Both the position numbers and the translations under genes were made by a program. From Allobranchiibius sp. CTAmp26 (GTDB taxonomy: Bacteria; Actinomycetota; Actinomycetes; Actinomycetales; Dermatophilaceae), in assembly GCF_017565405.1 (NCBI RefSeq), contig NZ_JAGEKR010000002.1:1-64000 (forward strand): a stretch of 64,000 nucleotides of DNA. Direction: 5' to 3'. Positions 2,898-33,091 of the stretch are shown here, piece by piece; position 1 is the first letter of the stretch, and each line of letters starts with the position of its first letter. Under the pieces are notes generated by a model, which worked only from the letters and a program-made list of their open reading frames with translations, ran no database searches and was not told where the DNA came from.

Positions 2898-3206
2898 ATG
2901 ACAAAGGGATATTGGGTCGGTCGGATCGATGTCAGCGACCCGGATCGGTACGCGCAGTACGCCGCCGTCAACGGGGCCGCGTACGCGGCGTACGGCGGTC
3001 GTCTTCTCGTGCGCGGTGGGGGTTTCGAAGCGGTCGAGGGCGCCGCGCGGTCGCGCAACGTGGTGATCGAGTTTCCCTCGTACGAGCAGGCGTTGGCGTG
3101 CTATCACTCGGATCTCTATCAGTCGGCACGCGCTCTGCGGGAGAACGCGGCCACCATCGAGCTGATCGTGGTCGAGGGCTATGACGGACCCCAGCCGGGC
3201 GAGTGA
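2898..3206 (+). CDS. DUF1330 domain protein
   Basis: Small cytoplasmic protein of 102 aa matching the DUF1330 (dimeric alpha-beta barrel) pattern: MTKGYWVGRIDVSDPDRY at the N-terminus, a central GGRLLVRGG, FPSYEQALACYHSDLYQ, and a C-terminal IVVEGYDG. The family has no agreed function. The ATG at 2898 is preferred over upstream in-frame starts because the domain begins exactly there. Its 3' end overlaps the next gene by 26 nt in another frame, so the two are probably coexpressed. Confidence 0.85.
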   Translation: MTKGYWVGRIDVSDPDRYAQYAAVNGAAYAAYGGRLLVRGGGFEAVEGAARSRNVVIEFPSYEQALACYHSDLYQSARALRENAATIELIVVEGYDGPQPGE

Positions 3207-4662: not shown

Positions 4663-5673
4663 ATGGAAACCATGACCCCCGGCCGCGCCCTCGTGCTCGG
4701 CGCCACCGGATACGTCGGGTCCCGGCTGGTGCCGCAGCTGCTGGACGCCGGATGGTCGACCCGGGTCATGAGTCGCCATCCGCAGCGACTGGCCGACCGT
4801 GCCTGGAGTGCGCGCGCGGAGGTCGTCGGCGGCGATGCGTCACGTGCGCAGGACATGGCGGCCGCGTGTGCGGACGTCGACGTCGTCTACTACCTGCTGC
4901 ACTCGATGGACGGCACGGGTGACTTCGCCCAGCGGGATCGCGAGCTGGCAGACGTCTGCGCGCAGGTCGCCGCGGACGCCGGCGTACGCCGCATCGTCTA
5001 CCTCGGCGCGCTGCACCCGAGCGGCCCGCTGAGCCCGCACCTGGCCTCGCGCGTGGAGGTGGGCGAGATCCTGCTCGCCGGCGAGGTGCCGACGACCGTG
5101 CTGCAGGCGGCCGTGGTGCTGGGGGCCGGCTCGGCGTCGTTCGAGCTGCTACGCCACCTGAGCGCCCGGCTCATCGTGGCGCCGGCGCCCGACTGGGTGC
5201 TGAATCGCTTGCAGCCCATCGCGATCCGTGACGCGCTGCACTACCTCGTCGAGAGCGCCTCGATGGCGTCGGGCATCAACAGGTCCTTCGACATCGGCGG
5301 ACCCGACGTGCTCAGTTACCGCGACATGGTCCTGCAGTACGCCGACATCGCGGGTCTGCGCCGCCGTCACCTGCTCACCCTGCGCGCGCCGAAGCTGCTG
5401 ACCGGCATCGCCGGCGAGGTGGTCGGGCGTTTGACGCCGGTGCCCCGGGGAGTGGCGGCCCCGCTGGTCGGCAGCCTGGTGCACGAGGTCATCTGCCACG
5501 AGCACGACATCCAGGGGCTCATCGAGCCCGAGCTCGGCGGCCTGCTCAGCTTCGAGCTCGCCGTACTCGCCGCGCTGGAGAACGAGGGGCGGGGCGAGCA
5601 CGGCCGGTTGCCCGAGCCGGGCGCCCAGGACCCGGCGTACCGGACGGTGGCCGACCCGACCTGGGCCGGCTGA
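4663..5673 (+). CDS. NAD(P)-binding atypical SDR (NmrA/YbjT-like)
   Basis: Rossmann-fold protein of 336 aa with the dinucleotide motif GATGYVG at 13-19, near the N-terminus, then VMSRHP, which fits NADP recognition. It resembles NAD(P)H-binding, epimerase-like proteins of the YbjT/NmrA group (about 300-500 aa); the substrate is not known. An alternative ATG at 4672 would start at MTPGRALVLG. It is followed by an SRPBCC protein after 44 nt; a short SDR next to an SRPBCC protein recalls two-domain proteins that fuse these parts. Confidence 0.75.
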   Translation: METMTPGRALVLGATGYVGSRLVPQLLDAGWSTRVMSRHPQRLADRAWSARAEVVGGDASRAQDMAAACADVDVVYYLLHSMDGTGDFAQRDRELADVCAQVAADAGVRRIVYLGALHPSGPLSPHLASRVEVGEILLAGEVPTTVLQAAVVLGAGSASFELLRHLSARLIVAPAPDWVLNRLQPIAIRDALHYLVESASMASGINRSFDIGGPDVLSYRDMVLQYADIAGLRRRHLLTLRAPKLLTGIAGEVVGRLTPVPRGVAAPLVGSLVHEVICHEHDIQGLIEPELGGLLSFELAVLAALENEGRGEHGRLPEPGAQDPAYRTVADPTWAG

Positions 5674-18561: not shown

Positions 18562-18634
18562 TGGGCCCTCCGGGGCTCGAACCCGGAACCTACGGATTAA
18601 AAGTCCGCAGCTCTACCAATTGAGCTAAAGGCCC
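18562..18634 (-). tRNA. tRNA-Lys (UUU)
   Basis: A 73-nt tRNA on the minus strand. The acceptor stem GGGCCTT pairs with AGGGCCC (one G-U pair), followed by discriminator A. The D-arm is TAGCTC-AATTGGTA-GAGC, the anticodon loop CTTTTAA with anticodon TTT, and the T-arm CCGGG-TTCGAGC-CCCGG. The CCA end is not encoded. TACGCT around 18658-18663 may be its -10 element. Confidence 0.97.
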
Positions 18635-26925: not shown

Positions 26926-27552
26926 GTGTCCGACAACGACTCTCGTCCACCACGCCGCCCGGCTCTGCGTTCGTCCGGGGAGCTGGAGGCGTACGCCGGG
27001 TCGAGTGACCCTGCCGAGCTGTCCGAGGCCGCGCACGAGACCGCGGCGGCACTGGTCGGGACCGGCCGAGCAGCGCACGATCCGCAGGTGACGGCCAAGC
27101 TCGTCAACCTGGTCGACGAGCTCGGCATCTCCACGCTCGCGGAATTGTGGGCCGACCGGCCCGCGACGAGTCTCCCCGGCGCGCTCTGGCGCCTCTACAC
27201 GCTGCGCGAATGGGTACGCCGTGACCCGGTCGGTGCCGCACGCGACTACGAGGCCGGTCGCGGGAGCGCCGAGGTCGCCCACGCCGTGGCCGGGTCGGCG
27301 GAGCCCCCGACACCCGAGGCCGTCCAGCAGCTGACCGATCAGATCCTCGCCGGCGTCTTCGAGGGCGACCTCGCGGTCGCGCTCGAGCGCGCAGCGGCGT
27401 TCTGCCGGGTCGTCTCGGTCGGTCGCGCCCACCGGGTCGACGATGCGGACAGTGCGGCGTCCACGCAGACCACTCGCGCGGCTGCGCTGCTTACCACGGC
27501 GAGCGATCTGTCCCGCTGCGCCGCGCTCTGGCGGGCCGGCAAGCTCGACTGA
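26926..27552 (+). CDS. Conserved actinobacterial hypothetical protein
   Basis: Acidic, alpha-helical protein of 208 aa without membrane segments or signal peptide. Not recognised beyond a general likeness to hypothetical proteins annotated in other actinobacteria. It starts with GTG 6 nt after treZ and so probably belongs to the treYZ transcript, but nothing in its sequence suggests a carbohydrate role. It is followed by a nested palindrome. Confidence 0.65.
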   Translation: MSDNDSRPPRRPALRSSGELEAYAGSSDPAELSEAAHETAAALVGTGRAAHDPQVTAKLVNLVDELGISTLAELWADRPATSLPGALWRLYTLREWVRRDPVGAARDYEAGRGSAEVAHAVAGSAEPPTPEAVQQLTDQILAGVFEGDLAVALERAAAFCRVVSVGRAHRVDDADSAASTQTTRAAALLTTASDLSRCAALWRAGKLD

Positions 27553-27573: not shown

Positions 27574-27635
27574 CTGACGGCGTTCCCGTTCGTTGACGGC
27601 GTTCGAACGCCGTCAACCGTCGCGAACGCCGTCAG
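27574..27635. repeat. Nested palindrome with four copies of TGACGGCGTTC
   Basis: The 11-mer TGACGGCGTTC occurs at 27575-27585 and 27594-27604, and its complement GAACGCCGTCA at 27605-27615 and 27624-27634. The middle pair makes a perfect 24-bp palindrome (27593-27616, arms TTGACGGCGTTC), enclosed by the outer pair. It lies between convergent genes and may act as a two-way terminator or cruciform, but its order is more elaborate than a simple hairpin. Confidence 0.75.
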
Positions 27636-27660
27636 GGTGCGGGTCGGTGGATCTTCCGGG

Positions 27661-28269
27661 TCAGTCGAACCGGTGGATGTCCGACGGCGGGCCCGGTCGG
27701 TCGAGGTGGATGACCTCCGGCGGGTTGCCCCACTCGTCCAGACCCAGCCGCGACATCGGTGCCAGCCCCTCGAAGGTGGGGTGGTCGCCGTCGAGGATGT
27801 CCGGATCGATGGCGAACGCCGTCACCCGACCGATGATCAGCGTGGAGTCGCCGAGCTGGAGCATCGTGTGCATCACGCACTCGATGGACGCCGGCGACGC
27901 CGCGACCCGCTGCGGCCGCACCGTGTCGCTGTCCTCCATCGTGAGGCCGAGCTCGGCGGCCTCGTCATCCGAGGGATCGAAGCGCGCCGAACTGTTGTTG
28001 ACCGCGTGCTTGAGACGCTGCGTCGCGACGTTGACCACGAACTCACGGGTGTCGCGCACGTTGCGGACAGTGTCCTTCTCGCCGACCGAGGAGAAGGCGA
28101 CCATCGGCGGATCCGCGCACACCACCGTGAAGAACGAATGCGGCGCCAGGTTGCCGACACCGTCGCCGGACACCGTCGACACCCAGGCGATGGGCCGCGG
28201 AACGACAAGCGAGTTGAGCAACGGATAGGGCTTCACGCCATCGTCGCCGGGGCGCATCACGGTTCGCAT
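27661..28269 (-). CDS. Flavin reductase family protein (FMN-binding split barrel)
   Basis: Protein of 202 aa of the flavin reductase/FMN-binding split-barrel family: PRPIAWVSTVSGDGVGNLAPHSFF at the N-terminus, PMVAFSSV, KDTVRNVRDTREFVVN, and an IGRV-type segment. Members reduce FMN or act as flavin-binding oxygenase partners. The ATG at 28269 has TACGGT 6 nt upstream, so it is probably leaderless. An in-frame ATG at 28257 is an alternative start. A frame to 28449 runs into the structured region and is rejected. Confidence 0.82.
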   Translation of the reverse strand: MRTVMRPGDDGVKPYPLLNSLVVPRPIAWVSTVSGDGVGNLAPHSFFTVVCADPPMVAFSSVGEKDTVRNVRDTREFVVNVATQRLKHAVNNSSARFDPSDDEAAELGLTMEDSDTVRPQRVAASPASIECVMHTMLQLGDSTLIIGRVTAFAIDPDILDGDHPTFEGLAPMSRLGLDEWGNPPEVIHLDRPGPPSDIHRFD

Positions 28270-28275
28270 GCAGCC

Positions 28276-28281
28276 ACCGTA
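28276..28281 (-). promoter_or_regulatory. -10 hexamer for leaderless flavin reductase
   Basis: On the minus strand TACGGT is followed by GGCTGC (6 nt) and the ATG at 28269. Confidence 0.5.
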
Positions 28282-28383
28282 TGCGGCTGCCCTGGTGGGA
28301 GATCGGCCGGAGCCCGGATCGCTGCGCAGCGACGATCGATCGACCGAGCCCCCGGTGCGGAACATTCCGGCCGGTCGCCCCGT

Positions 28384-28483
28384 TAGGATCGGGTGTGCGT
28401 CGGGCCGCGGCAGCCCCGGGTCCCAAATAAAGCCGCTACGAGCGGCCACGCGCCGTGAGGCGCTCCCGGCCCGACGCGCACAC
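28384..28483 (+). ncRNA. Candidate structured RNA element, unassigned
   Basis: GTGTGCGTCGGGCC (28393-28406) pairs with 28468-28483 (one 2-nt bulge), closing a multibranch structure. Inside are two tight hairpins, GCCGCT-ACG-AGCGGC (28432-28446) and GCGCC-GTGA-GGCGC (28450-28463). TAGGAT at 28384-28389 upstream is a possible -10 element. Another stem, CTGAC...GTCAG, may follow near 28496-28530. I do not recognise a known RNA family, and no plus-strand gene follows; it could also be read as terminator plus flanking palindrome on the minus strand. Confidence 0.4.
28425..28446 (-). terminator. Rho-independent-like terminator of the Cys/His mini-gene
   Basis: On the minus strand GCCGCT-CGT-AGCGGC is followed by TTTATTT. 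This is the only hairpin in the window with a clear T-rich tail. It lies about 80 bp after the stop of the 28527-28772 gene and is nested in the larger stem described at 28384-28483. Confidence 0.6.
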
Positions 28484-28526
28484 TTCCTGGGCCAGCTGAC
28501 CGCGTGCGTCGCTGTAGGGCGACCCG

Positions 28527-28772
28527 TCAGTCCCGGTGGTCGGTCGTCTTCAGCTTGACCTTGTGGGTGCCCTTGCAGGAGTTCTCGTGGTCCTTGGCGT
28601 CAGCCCGCGCCTTGTCCCGCGAGCGTCGCGCCCGGCCCCGCCACTCGCAGCTCTTGCAGAACCCGTAGGCGAAGCTGCCGTCGTCCTTGGTGGAACTGTC
28701 GGGCTCCGGAGCGGGCGTAGGGACGTCGGCTGAAGCCTTCTTCCGCTTCTTCTTGTCCTTGTCCTTCGCCAC
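28527..28772 (-). CDS. Small basic Cys/His protein, possible zinc ribbon
   Basis: Hydrophilic protein of 81 aa from GTG 28772, beginning with a lysine-rich stretch (AKDKDKKKRKK), an acidic Pro/Asp/Ser linker, then FCKSCEWRGRARR and KDHENSCKGTHKV. The Cys-x2-Cys pair plus the later His/Cys could bind one zinc, and the basic tail suggests nucleic-acid contact. Not recognised as a named family. An ATG at 28787 gives five more residues. Confidence 0.6.
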   Translation of the reverse strand: MAKDKDKKKRKKASADVPTPAPEPDSSTKDDGSFAYGFCKSCEWRGRARRSRDKARADAKDHENSCKGTHKVKLKTTDHRD

Positions 28773-29085
28773 CCGGCAATTGTGCACGCCTGCTCAAGCC
28801 GGGCTGGGTCGGGCCTCGACATTGCTGCGCACGCCGAGGTGGGGGTTTTGCGTCTCCGGCCAGTGCTGCAGCCCTGGCCACGGACGCAAACCGCGCACCT
28901 CGCCGTACCCCACCCTGACGCCCGGGCGCCCACTGTCGCGCACGCATGCTGCGGTGCGGAGCGGCTTCGACGGTGCACTGGTCCTGAGATGCGCAGCTGT
29001 GCCTTCTCGGCTGAGCTTCGTCGCGCTCCGCTTCGGCCGCGTGCTCGCTTCGCTCGCCCGCAACCTCCGCTGCGCGCTCCTCAGC
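28773..29085. other. Gene-free stretch of 313 bp
   Basis: No credible gene: frames here have antisense-like composition. It contains the 28835-28902 hairpin repeat and the 29007-29093 inverted repeat, with runs of CTCGCTTCGCTCGC-type sequence. Confidence 0.6.
28835..28902. repeat. Long imperfect inverted repeat (29-nt arms)
   Basis: Left arm 28835-28863 and right arm 28874-28902 match at 23 of 29 positions around a 10-nt loop. The core TTTGCGTC/GACGCAAA is shared with the repeats at the start of the window (12-41), so it seems to be a dispersed intergenic palindrome. Confidence 0.6.
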
Positions 29086-29093
29086 TCAGCCGA
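29007..29093. repeat. 11-bp inverted repeat flanking 65 bp at the pstB end
   Basis: TCGGCTGAGCT (29007-29017) and AGCTCAGCCGA (29083-29093) are perfect complements. The right arm overlaps the last codons of pstB. The intervening sequence is a run of GCTTCGCTCG-like units. Possible terminator or repeat insertion. Confidence 0.5.
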
Positions 29094-29862
29094 AGCGACC
29101 GGAGATGTAGTCCTCCGTCGCGCTCACCTCGGGGTTGTTGAAGATCTTCTGGGTGTCGTTCATCTCGATGAGGCGGCCCGGCTTGCCGGTGGCCGCGAGG
29201 TTGAAGAACGCCGTCTTGTCCGACACCCGCGATGCCTGCTGCATATTGTGGGTGACGATCACGATCGTGTAGCGGTCCTTCAGCTCGGTGACCAGGTCCT
29301 CGATGGCCAGCGTCGAGATGGGGTCCAGCGCCGAGCACGGCTCGTCCATCAGCAGCACCTGCGGCTCGACCGCGATGGCCCGCGCGATGCACAGCCGCTG
29401 CTGCTGACCACCGGACAGTCCGGCGCCGGGCTTGCCGAGGCGGTCCTTGACCTCGTTCCATAGGTTCGCGCCTCGCAGCGACTGCTCGGTCTTCTCCTCC
29501 AGCAGCTTCTTGCCCTTGACGCCGTTGAGGCGCAACCCGGCGGTCACGTTGTCCCGGATCGACATGGTGGGGAACGGGTTGGGGCGCTGGAAGACCATGC
29601 CGACGGTGCGCCGTACGCCGACCGCGTCCACTCCGGGCGCGTACAGATCCTGGTCGTCCAGCCGCACGGACCCCTCGACCCGGCCGCCGGGGATGACCTC
29701 GTGCATCCGGTTCAGCGTGCGCAGGAACGTTGACTTGCCGCAGCCCGACGGTCCGATGAAGGCCGTGATGGACCGCGGCTCGATCGTCATCGTGACGTCC
29801 TCCACCGCCTTGAAGTCGCCATAGAAGACGTTGAGGTCCTTGACGTCGATTCGCTTGCCCAT
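29086..29862 (-). CDS. pstB: Phosphate ABC transporter ATP-binding protein
   Basis: ATPase of 258 aa energising high-affinity phosphate uptake. Walker [10 protein letters not shown] is at 37-45, Q-loop region [12 protein letters not shown], signature LSGGQQQR, Walker [12 protein letters not shown] and the switch His in VTHNMQQ. Normal length. Last gene of pstSCAB, 32 nt after pstA. phoU is not beside it. Confidence 0.97.
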
Positions 29863-29894
29863 GGGGTTGATTCAGTCGCTTTCGTCTAGACGGG

Positions 29895-30857
29895 TCAGCG
29901 CTTGACCCGGGTCAGTCGACCGATCAGCCGGCCGAGGAGGTTGATGGCGAGGACAAGCAGGATGAGGGTCAAGGCCCCACCCCAGACGCGGTCCGCGGAT
30001 ATCGGGCTGCTGATGTTCCCGGACTGGTTGTAGATCAGCGTCGGCAGGGACGCGATGCCCGCCGAGGCCGCCGGGTTGTAGGTCAGGTACTGGAAGTACG
30101 TCGTGAGGAACAGCCAGGGCGCGGTCTCGCCCAGCACGCGGGCCAGCCCGAGCAGCGCACCGGTGATGATGCCGGAGATGGCAGTGGGGAGCACGACCCG
30201 CACCACGGTCTTCCACTTCGGCACGCCGAGGGCATACGACGCCTCACGCAACTCGTTCGGTACGAGCTTCAGCATCTCCTCGGTGGACCGGGTGACGACC
30301 GGGATCATCAGCATCGTCAACGCCAGGGCTACGCAGATCGGCACCAGTTGCTGCTGCAACGTGGTCACCCAGACGGCGAACACGAAGAGCGCGGCGACGA
30401 TCGAGGGGATGCCGCTCAGGATGTCGACCATGAAGCTGACCACCCGTGCGATGCGGGCATTGGTGCGCCCGCCGCTGCGGCCGTACTCCACGAGATAGAT
30501 CGCCGTCATCACGGCGATCGGGATCGCGATCAACGAGGTGATCAGGCCGATCTCGACGGTGCCGACAATCGCGTGTCGGGCGCCGCGGATGTTGGTGTCG
30601 AAGCCGGGAGGGAGCGCCCCGGACTGGTCCTTCTGCCACCACGTCATGGACGCGACCGAGTGCCAGCCCTTCGACACCACGATCCACAAGATCCAGACCA
30701 GCGGGATGAGGGCGATGAGGAAGGCCAGCCACACAAGGACGGTCGCCGCGTTGTTGCGCAACGCCCGCCCGCCGGAGCGACCGGTGTCGAGGTCGGGGAG
30801 GGCTTCGTCGACGGCAGGGGCCGGTGCGGCGCTGCTGCCCTGGTTCGTGGTGCTCAC
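29895..30857 (-). CDS. pstA: Phosphate ABC transporter permease PstA
   Basis: Membrane protein of 320 aa with about six helices and the EAA-type loop ELREASYALGVPKWKTVVRVVLP, which contacts PstB. The N-terminal 45 aa are hydrophilic. The GTG start overlaps the pstC stop (GTGA). Confidence 0.95.
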   Translation of the reverse strand: MSTTNQGSSAAPAPAVDEALPDLDTGRSGGRALRNNAATVLVWLAFLIALIPLVWILWIVVSKGWHSVASMTWWQKDQSGALPPGFDTNIRGARHAIVGTVEIGLITSLIAIPIAVMTAIYLVEYGRSGGRTNARIARVVSFMVDILSGIPSIVAALFVFAVWVTTLQQQLVPICVALALTMLMIPVVTRSTEEMLKLVPNELREASYALGVPKWKTVVRVVLPTAISGIITGALLGLARVLGETAPWLFLTTYFQYLTYNPAASAGIASLPTLIYNQSGNISSPISADRVWGGALTLILLVLAINLLGRLIGRLTRVKR

Positions 30858-31861
30858 TCAGAGAACTCCCTACGGCGCTCGACGATCACTCGGGCGATCG
30901 CGTTGACGATGAACGTCAGGATGAACAGCACCAGTCCGGCGGCGATGAGGGCTCCCATCGCGTCGGCGTTGTTCTGGTTCTCCGGGGCGTCGCCGGCGAT
31001 CTGAGAGGCGAAGGTCGCTCCGCCGTTCATCAGGGATGCTGTGAAGCGCTGTCCGCCCGGCAGCGCCGTGAGGATGAACAGCACGGCGACGGTCTCGCCG
31101 AGAGCCCGTCCGAGACCGAGCATGGAGGCGCTGATCACTCCCGGCCGACCGAACGGGAGCACCGCGGTGCGAATCATCTCCCAGCGGGTGGCGCCCAACG
31201 CGAGAGCGCCCTCCTTGTGCGTCACCGGGGTCTGGGCGAACACCTCGCGCGACAGCGCGGTGATGATCGGCAGGATCATCACCGCCAGTACGACGCTGAC
31301 CATGAGGATCGTGGCGCCGCCCGTCACGCCTGGTACTGCCTTGAAGAGCGGGATCCAACCCAGCCAGTCCTGCAGGAAGTTCTGCACATGGGTGAACTTG
31401 GGGGCCACGACGTAGATGCCCCAGATGCCGTAGACGATCGAGGGCACGGCGGCCAGCAGGTCGATCAGGACAGCTCCGATGCGGGAGAGCCACGCCGGTG
31501 CGTAGTGCGTGAGGAAGAGCGCGATGCCCACGGAGAACGGCACGGCGAGCAGCAGCGCGACGACGGAGGAGACGACCGTCGTCCAGAGCAACTGGGCGAT
31601 CCCGAAGCGCTGGCCCGCGGCGTTCCACTCGCGGGAGGTCAGGAAGTTGATCTGGTCCTTGCCGATGGCCGGGATCGCCTGCGCCAAGAGGAAGATCCCG
31701 ACGAGCGCGACCACGACGACCACGAGGAGCCCGGCACCCATGGCCAGACCGCCGAAGACCCGATCACCCGTCGTACCGGTCGAGGCTCCAGCACCCGGAT
31801 CCGGACCGTCGGACGGATCGGACAGTCCGTCGCCGACGGAGACTCCGGTGATCGATGACAT
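30854..31861 (-). CDS. pstC: Phosphate ABC transporter permease PstC
   Basis: Membrane protein of 335 aa with about six helices and the coupling loop ALALGATRWEMIRTAVLP. It has a hydrophilic N-terminal extension of about 35 aa rich in Asp, Gly and Ser. An 81-bp gap with a strong stem-loop separates it from pstS. Confidence 0.95.
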   Translation of the reverse strand: MSSITGVSVGDGLSDPSDGPDPGAGASTGTTGDRVFGGLAMGAGLLVVVVVALVGIFLLAQAIPAIGKDQINFLTSREWNAAGQRFGIAQLLWTTVVSSVVALLLAVPFSVGIALFLTHYAPAWLSRIGAVLIDLLAAVPSIVYGIWGIYVVAPKFTHVQNFLQDWLGWIPLFKAVPGVTGGATILMVSVVLAVMILPIITALSREVFAQTPVTHKEGALALGATRWEMIRTAVLPFGRPGVISASMLGLGRALGETVAVLFILTALPGGQRFTASLMNGGATFASQIAGDAPENQNNADAMGALIAAGLVLFILTFIVNAIARVIVERRREFSE

Positions 31862-31898
31862 GAGTTCCTCGGAAGGCGTGGGAGGGAGAGGGCCGGTT

Positions 31899-31935
31899 CG
31901 GGCTCCGCAAGACTCCCAGAGTCTCGCGGAGCCCG
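31899..31935 (-). terminator. Intra-operon stem-loop between pstS and pstC
   Basis: Two 17-nt arms (31899-31915, 31919-31935) pair with one mismatch around a 3-nt loop. No T-tract. Such a hairpin would protect or partly terminate the transcript, giving more pstS than pstCAB, as expected for a binding protein. Confidence 0.65.
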
Positions 31936-31942
31936 AGGTCGA

Positions 31943-33091
31943 TCAACTGATGGCGTTGACCGCGGTCACGACCTTGGCCTGGATGGCCGAGGGCAGCGGA
32001 GCTGACCCGACCGTGGACAGCTTGCCCTGGAACTCCGGGGAGACCAAGTAGGACAGGAACGACTTCACGCCCTTGCCGGTGGTCGCATCCGCGTACTTGC
32101 TGCAGACGATCTCATAGGTCACCAGGACGATCGGGTAGGTCCCGGCGGCCTTGGTGGCGTAGTCGAGCTTCAGCTTCAGGTCGTTGCCGGTGCCGGCGAT
32201 CTTCGCGGCCTCGGCGGCCTTGCTGGCAGTCGCAGCGGTCAGCGCGACGGCGCCGCCACCGTTGTCGACCTGGGCCATCGTCAGGTTGTTGGTGATCGCG
32301 TAGGACCACTCGACGTAGGTGATCCCACCGTCGGTCGCCTTGACGGCGGAGCCGACGCCCGCGCTCTTGGGCTTGCCCTGGCCGACCTTGCCGGCCCACG
32401 CCTTGGCGTGCTTGGCGGTCCAGTCGGTCGGGTCGGTGGTGTTCATGTAGTTGGTGAAGTTGTCCGTGGTGCCCGAGGAGTCAGAGCGGAAGAACACGGA
32501 GATCTTGGTGCTCGGCAGCTTCACACCCTTGTTCGCGGCCGCGATCGCCGGGTCGTTCCAGGCGGTGATCTTGCCGCTGAAGATCTTGGCGATCAGGGTC
32601 GACGTCAGCGTCAGCTTGCCGACACCCTTGAGGTTGTAGGCGACCGCGATCGGGCCGACGACCATCGGCAGGTCCCAGGCCGGGGATGCGCACGCGGCGG
32701 CGGCCTTGGCCGGCTCGCCCTTCTCGGAGTTCAGCGCGGAGTCCGAACCGGCCCAGCCGACCTGCTTGGCGAGGAATGCGGTGACGCCCTGGCCCGAGGA
32801 GGTGGGGGCGTAGTTCACCTTGGCGCCGGAGCACTTGCTGGCGAAGTCGGTGGTCGCGAGCTGCATGGCGTTGCCCTGGGCGGTCGAGCCCTGGCCGCTG
32901 AGGCTGCCGCTGAAGCAGCTGCTGTCAGCAGTCTTGGTGCCGGCCGCGACGCTCGAGCTGGAGGACGAGCCGGAGCCGGAGGCGGAGCCAGAGCCGGTCG
33001 AGCCGGTGTTGGAGGAGCTACCGCAGGCGGACAGGGCGAGGGCTGCGGCAACGGCGACACCGCTGGCGCGGCCGATGGACGTGATCTTCAC
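31943..33091 (-). CDS. pstS: Phosphate-binding lipoprotein PstS
   Basis: Lipoprotein of 382 aa: lipobox LSAC with Cys23, then a Ser/Gly-rich linker and a periplasmic-binding-type domain. Phosphate-binding segments are visible as GQGSTAQGNAM, SDSALNSEKG, and FFRSDSSGTTDNF. It starts with GTG at 33091 with an AGAGG site upstream. The PHO box lies about 85-130 bp upstream of the start. Confidence 0.96.
   Translation of the reverse strand: MKITSIGRASGVAVAAALALSACGSSSNTGSTGSGSASGSGSSSSSSVAAGTKTADSSCFSGSLSGQGSTAQGNAMQLATTDFASKCSGAKVNYAPTSSGQGVTAFLAKQVGWAGSDSALNSEKGEPAKAAAACASPAWDLPMVVGPIAVAYNLKGVGKLTLTSTLIAKIFSGKITAWNDPAIAAANKGVKLPSTKISVFFRSDSSGTTDNFTNYMNTTDPTDWTAKHAKAWAGKVGQGKPKSAGVGSAVKATDGGITYVEWSYAITNNLTMAQVDNGGGAVALTAATASKAAEAAKIAGTGNDLKLKLDYATKAAGTYPIVLVTYEIVCSKYADATTGKGVKSFLSYLVSPEFQGKLSTVGSAPLPSAIQAKVVTAVNAIS

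Follow-up and report, generated by a model that had tools for sequence, protein, structure and literature searches.

Judged by comparison across relatives, the element at 28384-28530 (+) of the stretch of DNA analysed here (64,000 nt, hereafter the window) is a separate small RNA (sRNA) gene on the plus strand, with a core of about 90 nt and a distribution reaching across the class. That a structured sRNA on this strand is real is held with near certainty, and its action in trans is considered probable. The explanation put forward, which is somewhat favoured, is that of a trans-acting stress sRNA whose C-rich strand would pair with mRNAs and whose hairpins would dock a protein. The window belongs to a high-GC actinobacterium, and the element is flanked by two minus-strand genes (Table 1).

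Folding of 28384-28530 (+) returned the anatomy described in a first-pass annotation of this DNA, namely a closing stem with two inner hairpins, together with the additional stem placed there after the element, and the possible -10 noticed just upstream was recognised as TAGGAT. Beyond these features, GGAAC (28359-28363) and an invariant CCCCGGG (28414-28420) were found. From the position of the -10, the 5' end of the sRNA is predicted at about 28392-28397. The fold energy of the single sequence (28384-28530) was not beyond chance (z = -1.78, 12 of 200 shuffles being as good), so the case for an RNA rests on comparison. Among 68 homologous cores, the mean fold z against mononucleotide shuffles was -2.98, and 34 of the 68 fell below -3. 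The 60 nt on the 3' side of the core had a fold z < -3 in 15 of 68 loci, compared to 1 of 204 control windows, and hairpins resembling terminators are often seen there. Covariance-model matches spanned 87-93 nt in 40 class-wide loci.

Table 1. Coordinates of the sRNA element, its putative promoter and the neighbouring genes in the window.
Feature	Positions	Strand	Basis or remark
Linked gene, 208-aa uncharacterised predicted all-helical protein	26926-27552	+	No Pfam/NCBIfam match
Flavin reductase-like gene	27664-28263	-	PF01613
-35 element GGAAC of a SigR/SigH-type (ECF) promoter	28359-28363	+	GGAAC-N18-GTT
GTT of the ECF -10 (28382-28384), overlapping the SigA-like -10 TAGGAT (28384-28389)	28382-28389	+	Motif match
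Conserved sRNA core	28393-28481	+	Covariance-model match 28396-28483, 100 bits
Closing helix, 5' strand	28393-28410	+	Partner is 28465-28481 by folding
C-rich strand CCCCGGG-UCCCA	28414-28425	+	Unpaired in consensus fold; candidate interaction site
Inner hairpin 1, GCCGCU-ACG-AGCGGC	28432-28446	+	Folding and covariation
Inner hairpin 2, GCGCC-GUGA-GGCGC, GNRA-type loop	28450-28463	+	Folding and covariation
Closing helix, 3' strand	28465-28481	+	Folding and covariation over 68 sequences
Downstream stem, possible transcript 3' end or terminator	28496-28530	+	Folding
Small protein gene, lysine-rich, few cysteines	28527-28787	-	Weak DUF6349 match below cut-off
ABC transporter gene, to the right of the element	29086-29862	-	ABC_tran match

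With 28384-28500 as the BLAST query (E ≤ 0.001), 124 of 147 relatives were matched, covering 77 of 87 genera, and the dozen or so best relatives showed 92-98% identity over 82-105 nt. At the weak end of the 124, three genomes (E 7e-4 to 8.6e-4) were probably matched by chance at those places; in one of them (G108), the covariance model places a copy elsewhere in the genome. An alignment was made of 67 of 72 loci, omitting the window's own genome found again, a phage-labelled record, one locus without a local match and two weak matches that did not align with the core. In this alignment 93.9% of cells were paired and 13 of 27 pairs had changed on both sides (97 cells; 0 of 500 shuffles), the closing helix varying by compensating pairs and the two hairpins being nearly fixed.

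The class-wide alignment comprised 68 of 107 sequences, one being retained per group at an alignment score ≥ 0.90. It was made with MAFFT and fitted to no structure, the start of one sequence (L061) being shifted 5 nt by hand, and RNAalifold recovered from it the three-way junction formed by the closing helix and both hairpins. Paired cells made up 95.3% of the total and 14 of 23 pairs had changed on both sides (148 cells; 0 of 500 shuffles), while slid versions of the structure gave at most 47.8% paired and 55 cells. Nearly all of the covariation lay in the closing helix, where 11 of the 12 counted pairs had changed on both sides; one pair had done so in hairpin 1 (C-G to U-A, in 9 sequences) and two in hairpin 2. 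The check across relatives proposed in the first-pass annotation, which took a lack of conservation and covariation as evidence against the element, has thus been run, and both were found. No reading frame was open in more than 48 of the 68 sequences, and a protein-coding reading of the element was rejected for want of a conserved open frame.

The same alignments bear on strand and on two readings that involve no sRNA. Cells with G-U outnumbered those with A/C by 72:18 in the 68-sequence alignment and by 125:15 in the 67-sequence alignment (two weak pairs omitted), an excess which indicates that the plus strand is the RNA. A palindromic protein-binding site acting at the DNA level would account for the long inverted repeat and for the single match in nearly all matched relatives, but pairing in DNA does not predict this asymmetry, and a promoter motif precedes the element; such a site is regarded as extremely improbable. 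Equally remote is the reading of the element as only a transcription terminator, for instance for the minus-strand gene at 28527-28787. The first-pass annotation had held that one inner hairpin with its T-tract works as a terminator on the minus strand, and the pattern itself stood, hairpin 1 with TTTATTT scoring as one on that strand. A conserved terminator function was not supported, as only 23 of 106 loci retained at least 5 A among the 8 nt leading into hairpin 1, and the class-wide conservation and covariation far exceed what a terminator needs.

Within the junction, CCCCGGG was invariant in the 67-sequence alignment and nearly invariant in the 68 class-wide sequences. Its thermodynamic accessibility was only moderate, with mean unpaired probabilities of 0.49 for CCCC and 0.30 for GGG. 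An alternative fold, in which the C-rich strand pairs with hairpin 2, was considered and rejected. It paired 94.4% of cells compared to 95.3% for the three-way junction; at the two of its pairs that varied most, 18 and 21 cells were unpaired, and at each a single sequence had changed on both sides. The energy of a homodimer formed through CCCGGG was -109.8 kcal/mol, compared to -97.0 for two monomers. In the 67-sequence alignment (columns 28-31 and 67-69), GGGUCCC occurred mostly with the loop GUGA and GGGCUCC with GAGA, GACA or GACU in hairpin 2, a co-variation that may reflect a tertiary contact or phylogeny.

Upstream of the core, the motif GGAA[C/T]-N17-19-GTT was present in 56 of 107 loci, compared to 113 of 21400 control 110-mers from the same loci (0.53%), and its spacer was exactly 18 in 48 loci. 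All sites counted in the 67 order-level loci were GGAAC and those in the 40 class-wide loci mostly GGAAT; the window has GGAAC rather than GGAAT, with a spacer of 18. A SigA-like -10 (TANNNT) was suitably spaced in 75 of 107 loci, compared to 227 of 21400 control windows (1.06%). Of the 107 loci, 35 had both motifs, 21 only the ECF motif, 40 only TANNNT and 11 neither. Stress control is therefore not universal, since 51 of the 107 loci were without the strict ECF motif (40 with a SigA-like -10, 11 with neither). In eight loci (L116, L117, L140, L014, L022, L041, L047 and L049), a GTT lay 33-37 nt upstream of the core, and the gap appeared by eye to be filled by an extra 5' hairpin.

The published SigR consensus is GGAAT-N18-19-GTT (PMC9205884). 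Orthologues of SigR (TIGR02947, 356.9 bits) and RsrA (TIGR03988, 93.8 bits) were found above cut-off in the host genome, where GGAAT-N18-GTT lies 45 nt before an in-frame GTG of the sigR gene. The string GGAACA-N17-GTTA occurred twice in the whole genome, once at the RNA. Control of the SigR/SigH type is likely where the motif is present, and we infer that SigR itself reads the promoter of the RNA, another ECF sigma factor being possible. The promoter GGAA[T/C]-N18-GTT before the RNA resembles those of the SigR/SigH regulon, whereas the members of that regulon named in the literature seen are protein genes. No conserved sRNA linked to SigR/SigH was described in the titles and abstract openings listed by the literature search, subscription journals being largely outside that search.

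The linked gene lies 841 nt upstream of the RNA in the window, with the flavin reductase gene in between. Of the 107 loci, 69 encoded a homologue of its product near the RNA; in 58 this gene was upstream in the orientation of the RNA, in 10 it was downstream and reversed, and in 1 it was upstream and reversed. At the genome level, 114 of 394 class genomes had the protein, and 112 of these also had the RNA, compared to 105 of the other 280; 175 had neither (Fisher p = 5e-34, uncorrected for phylogeny). Distances were obtained for the 110 genomes with listed places, 2 of the 112 having no listed place for the RNA. In 89 of the 110, gene and RNA were within 2 kb of each other (median 79 nt), the RNA always on the 3' side of the gene, on the same strand in 79 genomes and inverted in 10; in the remaining genomes they were 2-10 kb apart (12), further apart (2) or on other contigs (7). 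The linkage suggests a function shared between RNA and protein. No Streptomyces- or Mycobacterium-like genome was among the 114, so the protein is not needed everywhere.

The family scan of the linked protein covered 59 of the 69 homologues found, and none of the 59 matched a Pfam or NCBIfam family. AlphaFold2 gave a confident all-helical fold (pLDDT 90.6, pTM 0.82). A Foldseek search of this model against solved structures returned no match at E ≤ 0.001, and VIA-align returned nothing convincing, its best Z (6.3) being in the range of common helical bundles. The structure search of the model thus indicates neither a new fold nor a function.

Orientation and surroundings are informative on whether the RNA is a transcript of its own. 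Where the two are linked, the RNA mostly follows the gene closely and in the same orientation, which makes processing from that gene's mRNA possible, and a cis-acting or processed element, either the 3' UTR of an upstream gene or the leader of a downstream one, would also fit a Streptomyces-like locus, where the RNA is 161 nt upstream of a malic enzyme gene on the same strand, and Mycobacterium, where it comes after a WhiB-family gene of the same orientation. In the window, however, the genes on either side run the opposite way, the RNA is inverted relative to the linked gene in the 10 genomes mentioned, and the promoter motif stands at a fixed distance from the core, so that this reading is considered improbable. 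A separate transcript, as assumed in the leading explanation, fits the occurrence of the RNA in both orientations to the linked gene and in other surroundings elsewhere.

The linkage also bears on an alternative in which the RNA binds a protein or ribonucleoprotein, the hairpins and the C-rich strand forming a recognition surface and mRNA pairing being unneeded. Candidate partners are the linked helical protein, where it exists, or a general one, such as RNA polymerase or the ribosome, in the manner of 6S or Ms1. In keeping with it, the hairpin sequences and CCCCGGG barely vary while the closing helix varies freely, the RNA is present in nearly all genomes with the linked protein, and it adjoins helD in Streptomyces-like loci. 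Against it, the co-occurrence is confounded by phylogeny, the 105 genomes with the RNA and without the linked protein include Streptomyces- and Mycobacterium-like ones, HelD is a neighbour in only four loci, and the linked protein has no family or solved relative indicating RNA binding. This alternative is regarded as a serious possibility, if short of an even chance. The near-fixed hairpins and the linkage to the protein gene speak for a protein partner no less than for mRNA pairing, and the place given to the C-rich strand in the leading explanation, as an mRNA-pairing seed, is accordingly a tentative one.

The other neighbours of the RNA varied between lineages. Scans covered 63 of 67 upstream and 62 of 68 downstream open reading frames (ORFs), the ten omitted being mostly very long or very short. 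The flavin reductase of the window recurred beside the RNA in 3 of 107 loci and the small protein (28527-28787) in 7 of 107. The neighbours were HelD and malic enzyme in Streptomyces-like loci, and a WhiB-family protein and a carboxyltransferase in Mycobacterium loci. To the right of the element, the window holds genes read as a pst-like phosphate transport cluster (29086-33091, minus strand), and DUF47/PhoU_div was found downstream of the RNA in 7 of the 62 neighbours scanned, with imperfect ORF picking; the phosphate genes near the RNA may reflect a phosphate link or chance. Two repeat structures were also observed in the window, namely dense nested inverted repeats at 27575-27640, on the 3' side of the gene at 26926-27552 and probably a terminator, and a long imperfect inverted repeat with CTGAGCT...AGCTCAG arms at 29010-29095, in the stretch that separates the small gene from that of the ABC transporter.

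Of 394 genomes drawn from the class, 217 were matched by a covariance model of the RNA, and these covered 72 of 138 genera, the other 177 genomes giving no match under strict filters that lose some weak matches. The model of the 68 class-wide sequences, applied to a draw of 296 genomes across the phylum, matched 21, all of them in the same class; among the 20 listed of the 275 non-matching genomes, 5 were in the class and 15 outside it. Within the genus Mycobacterium, 54 of 118 genomes matched. Among the matches listed, most genomes had one copy and some two or three. In one locus (L130), two copies stood in tandem (4890-4980 and 5072-5162), each preceded by a promoter-like GGAA[T/C]...GTT site. 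The Mycobacterium-type pattern was found in 11 records, ten from Mycobacterium/Mycolicibacterium and one filed as uncultured Rhodobiaceae, a contig that is probably misbinned. The exact pattern of the window's own variant had no match in named genomes, near records being left out. Plasmid records gave no match to the RNA, and phage records gave one, on a short unannotated scaffold. That scaffold, a 5.6 kb faecal record labelled 'Bacteriophage sp.' (MT838127.1), holds a copy at 3001-3087 with 86% identity and is probably a mislabelled bacterial contig.

The only gathering-level Rfam match in the window was a tRNA (18562-18634). At the gathering score nothing was found at the RNA in the window or in the 14 class-wide loci scanned. 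With the limit relaxed to E = 10, the region 28250-28650 and one Streptomyces-like region gave chance-level matches only. No Rfam model, including those of tmRNA, RNase P and SRP RNA, matched the element, in agreement with the earlier description of it as unassigned and unlike these RNAs or 6S; 6S had no match in the window or the class-wide loci scanned, and 6C none at the gathering score or at E up to 10 (28250-28650).

One member of the family has very probably been reported before. A Streptomyces-like locus reads, in order, HU, malic enzyme, the RNA, a HelD-like gene, an anti-sigma gene (by reading) and an ECF sigma gene, and in four loci assigned as Streptomyces-like from their gene order (L109-L112) the RNA stands beside the orthologue of SCO2952 (HelD), a context different from that of the window, whose own tie to this copy is one of homology alone. 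In S. coelicolor, SCO2950 is hupA, SCO2953 is RsuA and SCO2954 is SigU (PMC4848846), SCO2951 is malic enzyme (PMC7494193), and SCO2952 is HelD, an RNA polymerase recycling motor (PMC8655204). The sRNA scr2952 is one of 11 with confirmed expression and is conserved in over half of the Streptomyces examined (PMC8388888). As the Streptomyces-like copy sits between the SCO2951 and SCO2952 homologues, it is very probably the uncharacterised scr2952, on the basis of location and name rather than sequence. The same paper states that its confirmed sRNAs are in Rfam (PMC8388888), and the Rfam scan of three Streptomyces-like loci (L109, L110 and L111) returned nothing at the RNA. The main text of Moody et al. 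2013 (PMC3765725) contains neither '2951' nor '2952'. The published accounts of scr2952, in the parts covered, differ in giving no class-wide family, structure, sigma factor or protein link.

Other known actinobacterial sRNAs resemble the RNA in part. Like 6C RNA (B11), it is an actinobacterial sRNA with C-rich unpaired bases, but 6C has two stem-loops with at least six C each (PMC8388888), in contrast to the single CCCCGGG strand within a three-way junction here. With Ms1/scr3559 and 6S it shares a stand-alone nature, paired ends and a wide occurrence in actinobacteria, whereas it differs from them in its two inner hairpins. For length, about 160 nt or more in 6S and Ms1, the value here is a model span of 87-93 nt, and the transcript itself may be longer. 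A HAD hydrolase gene marks Ms1 loci in most species (PMC9130861), and none was recognised beside the RNA in the window. As far as Rfam and the literature searched show, the RNA is undescribed as a family, with one likely known member, in Streptomyces.

In the mechanism proposed for the leading explanation, SigR/SigH, responding to thiol-oxidative stress, and in part the housekeeping sigma factor, would drive a transcript of about 90-140 nt acting in trans. The closing helix would protect its ends and clamp the junction, which would in turn present CCCCGGG-YYCC to G-rich sites such as the Shine-Dalgarno regions of mRNAs, and pairing would lower the translation of the target mRNAs during stress. 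The C-rich strand is reminiscent of the loops, likewise rich in C, by which other sRNAs of Gram-positive bacteria pair with G-rich ribosome-binding sites. The two fixed hairpins would serve as a platform on which a protein docks, and in many genera this protein may be the linked helical one.

A broader proposal, judged somewhat less likely than not, is that the RNA is an ancient, class-wide member of the SigR/SigH thiol-stress regulon that forms, over much of the class, a two-gene module with an uncharacterised helical RNA-binding protein. In Streptomyces and Mycobacterium the protein would later have disappeared or given way to another, and the promoter would have shifted between stress-only, dual and housekeeping control. 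To our knowledge, few actinobacterial sRNAs are conserved far beyond a genus. The RNA is a ready candidate for a new Rfam family and is directly testable in Streptomyces. If the proposal is true, an RNA arm would be added to a well-studied stress response, spanning Streptomyces, the mycobacteria and the relatives of the window's organism.
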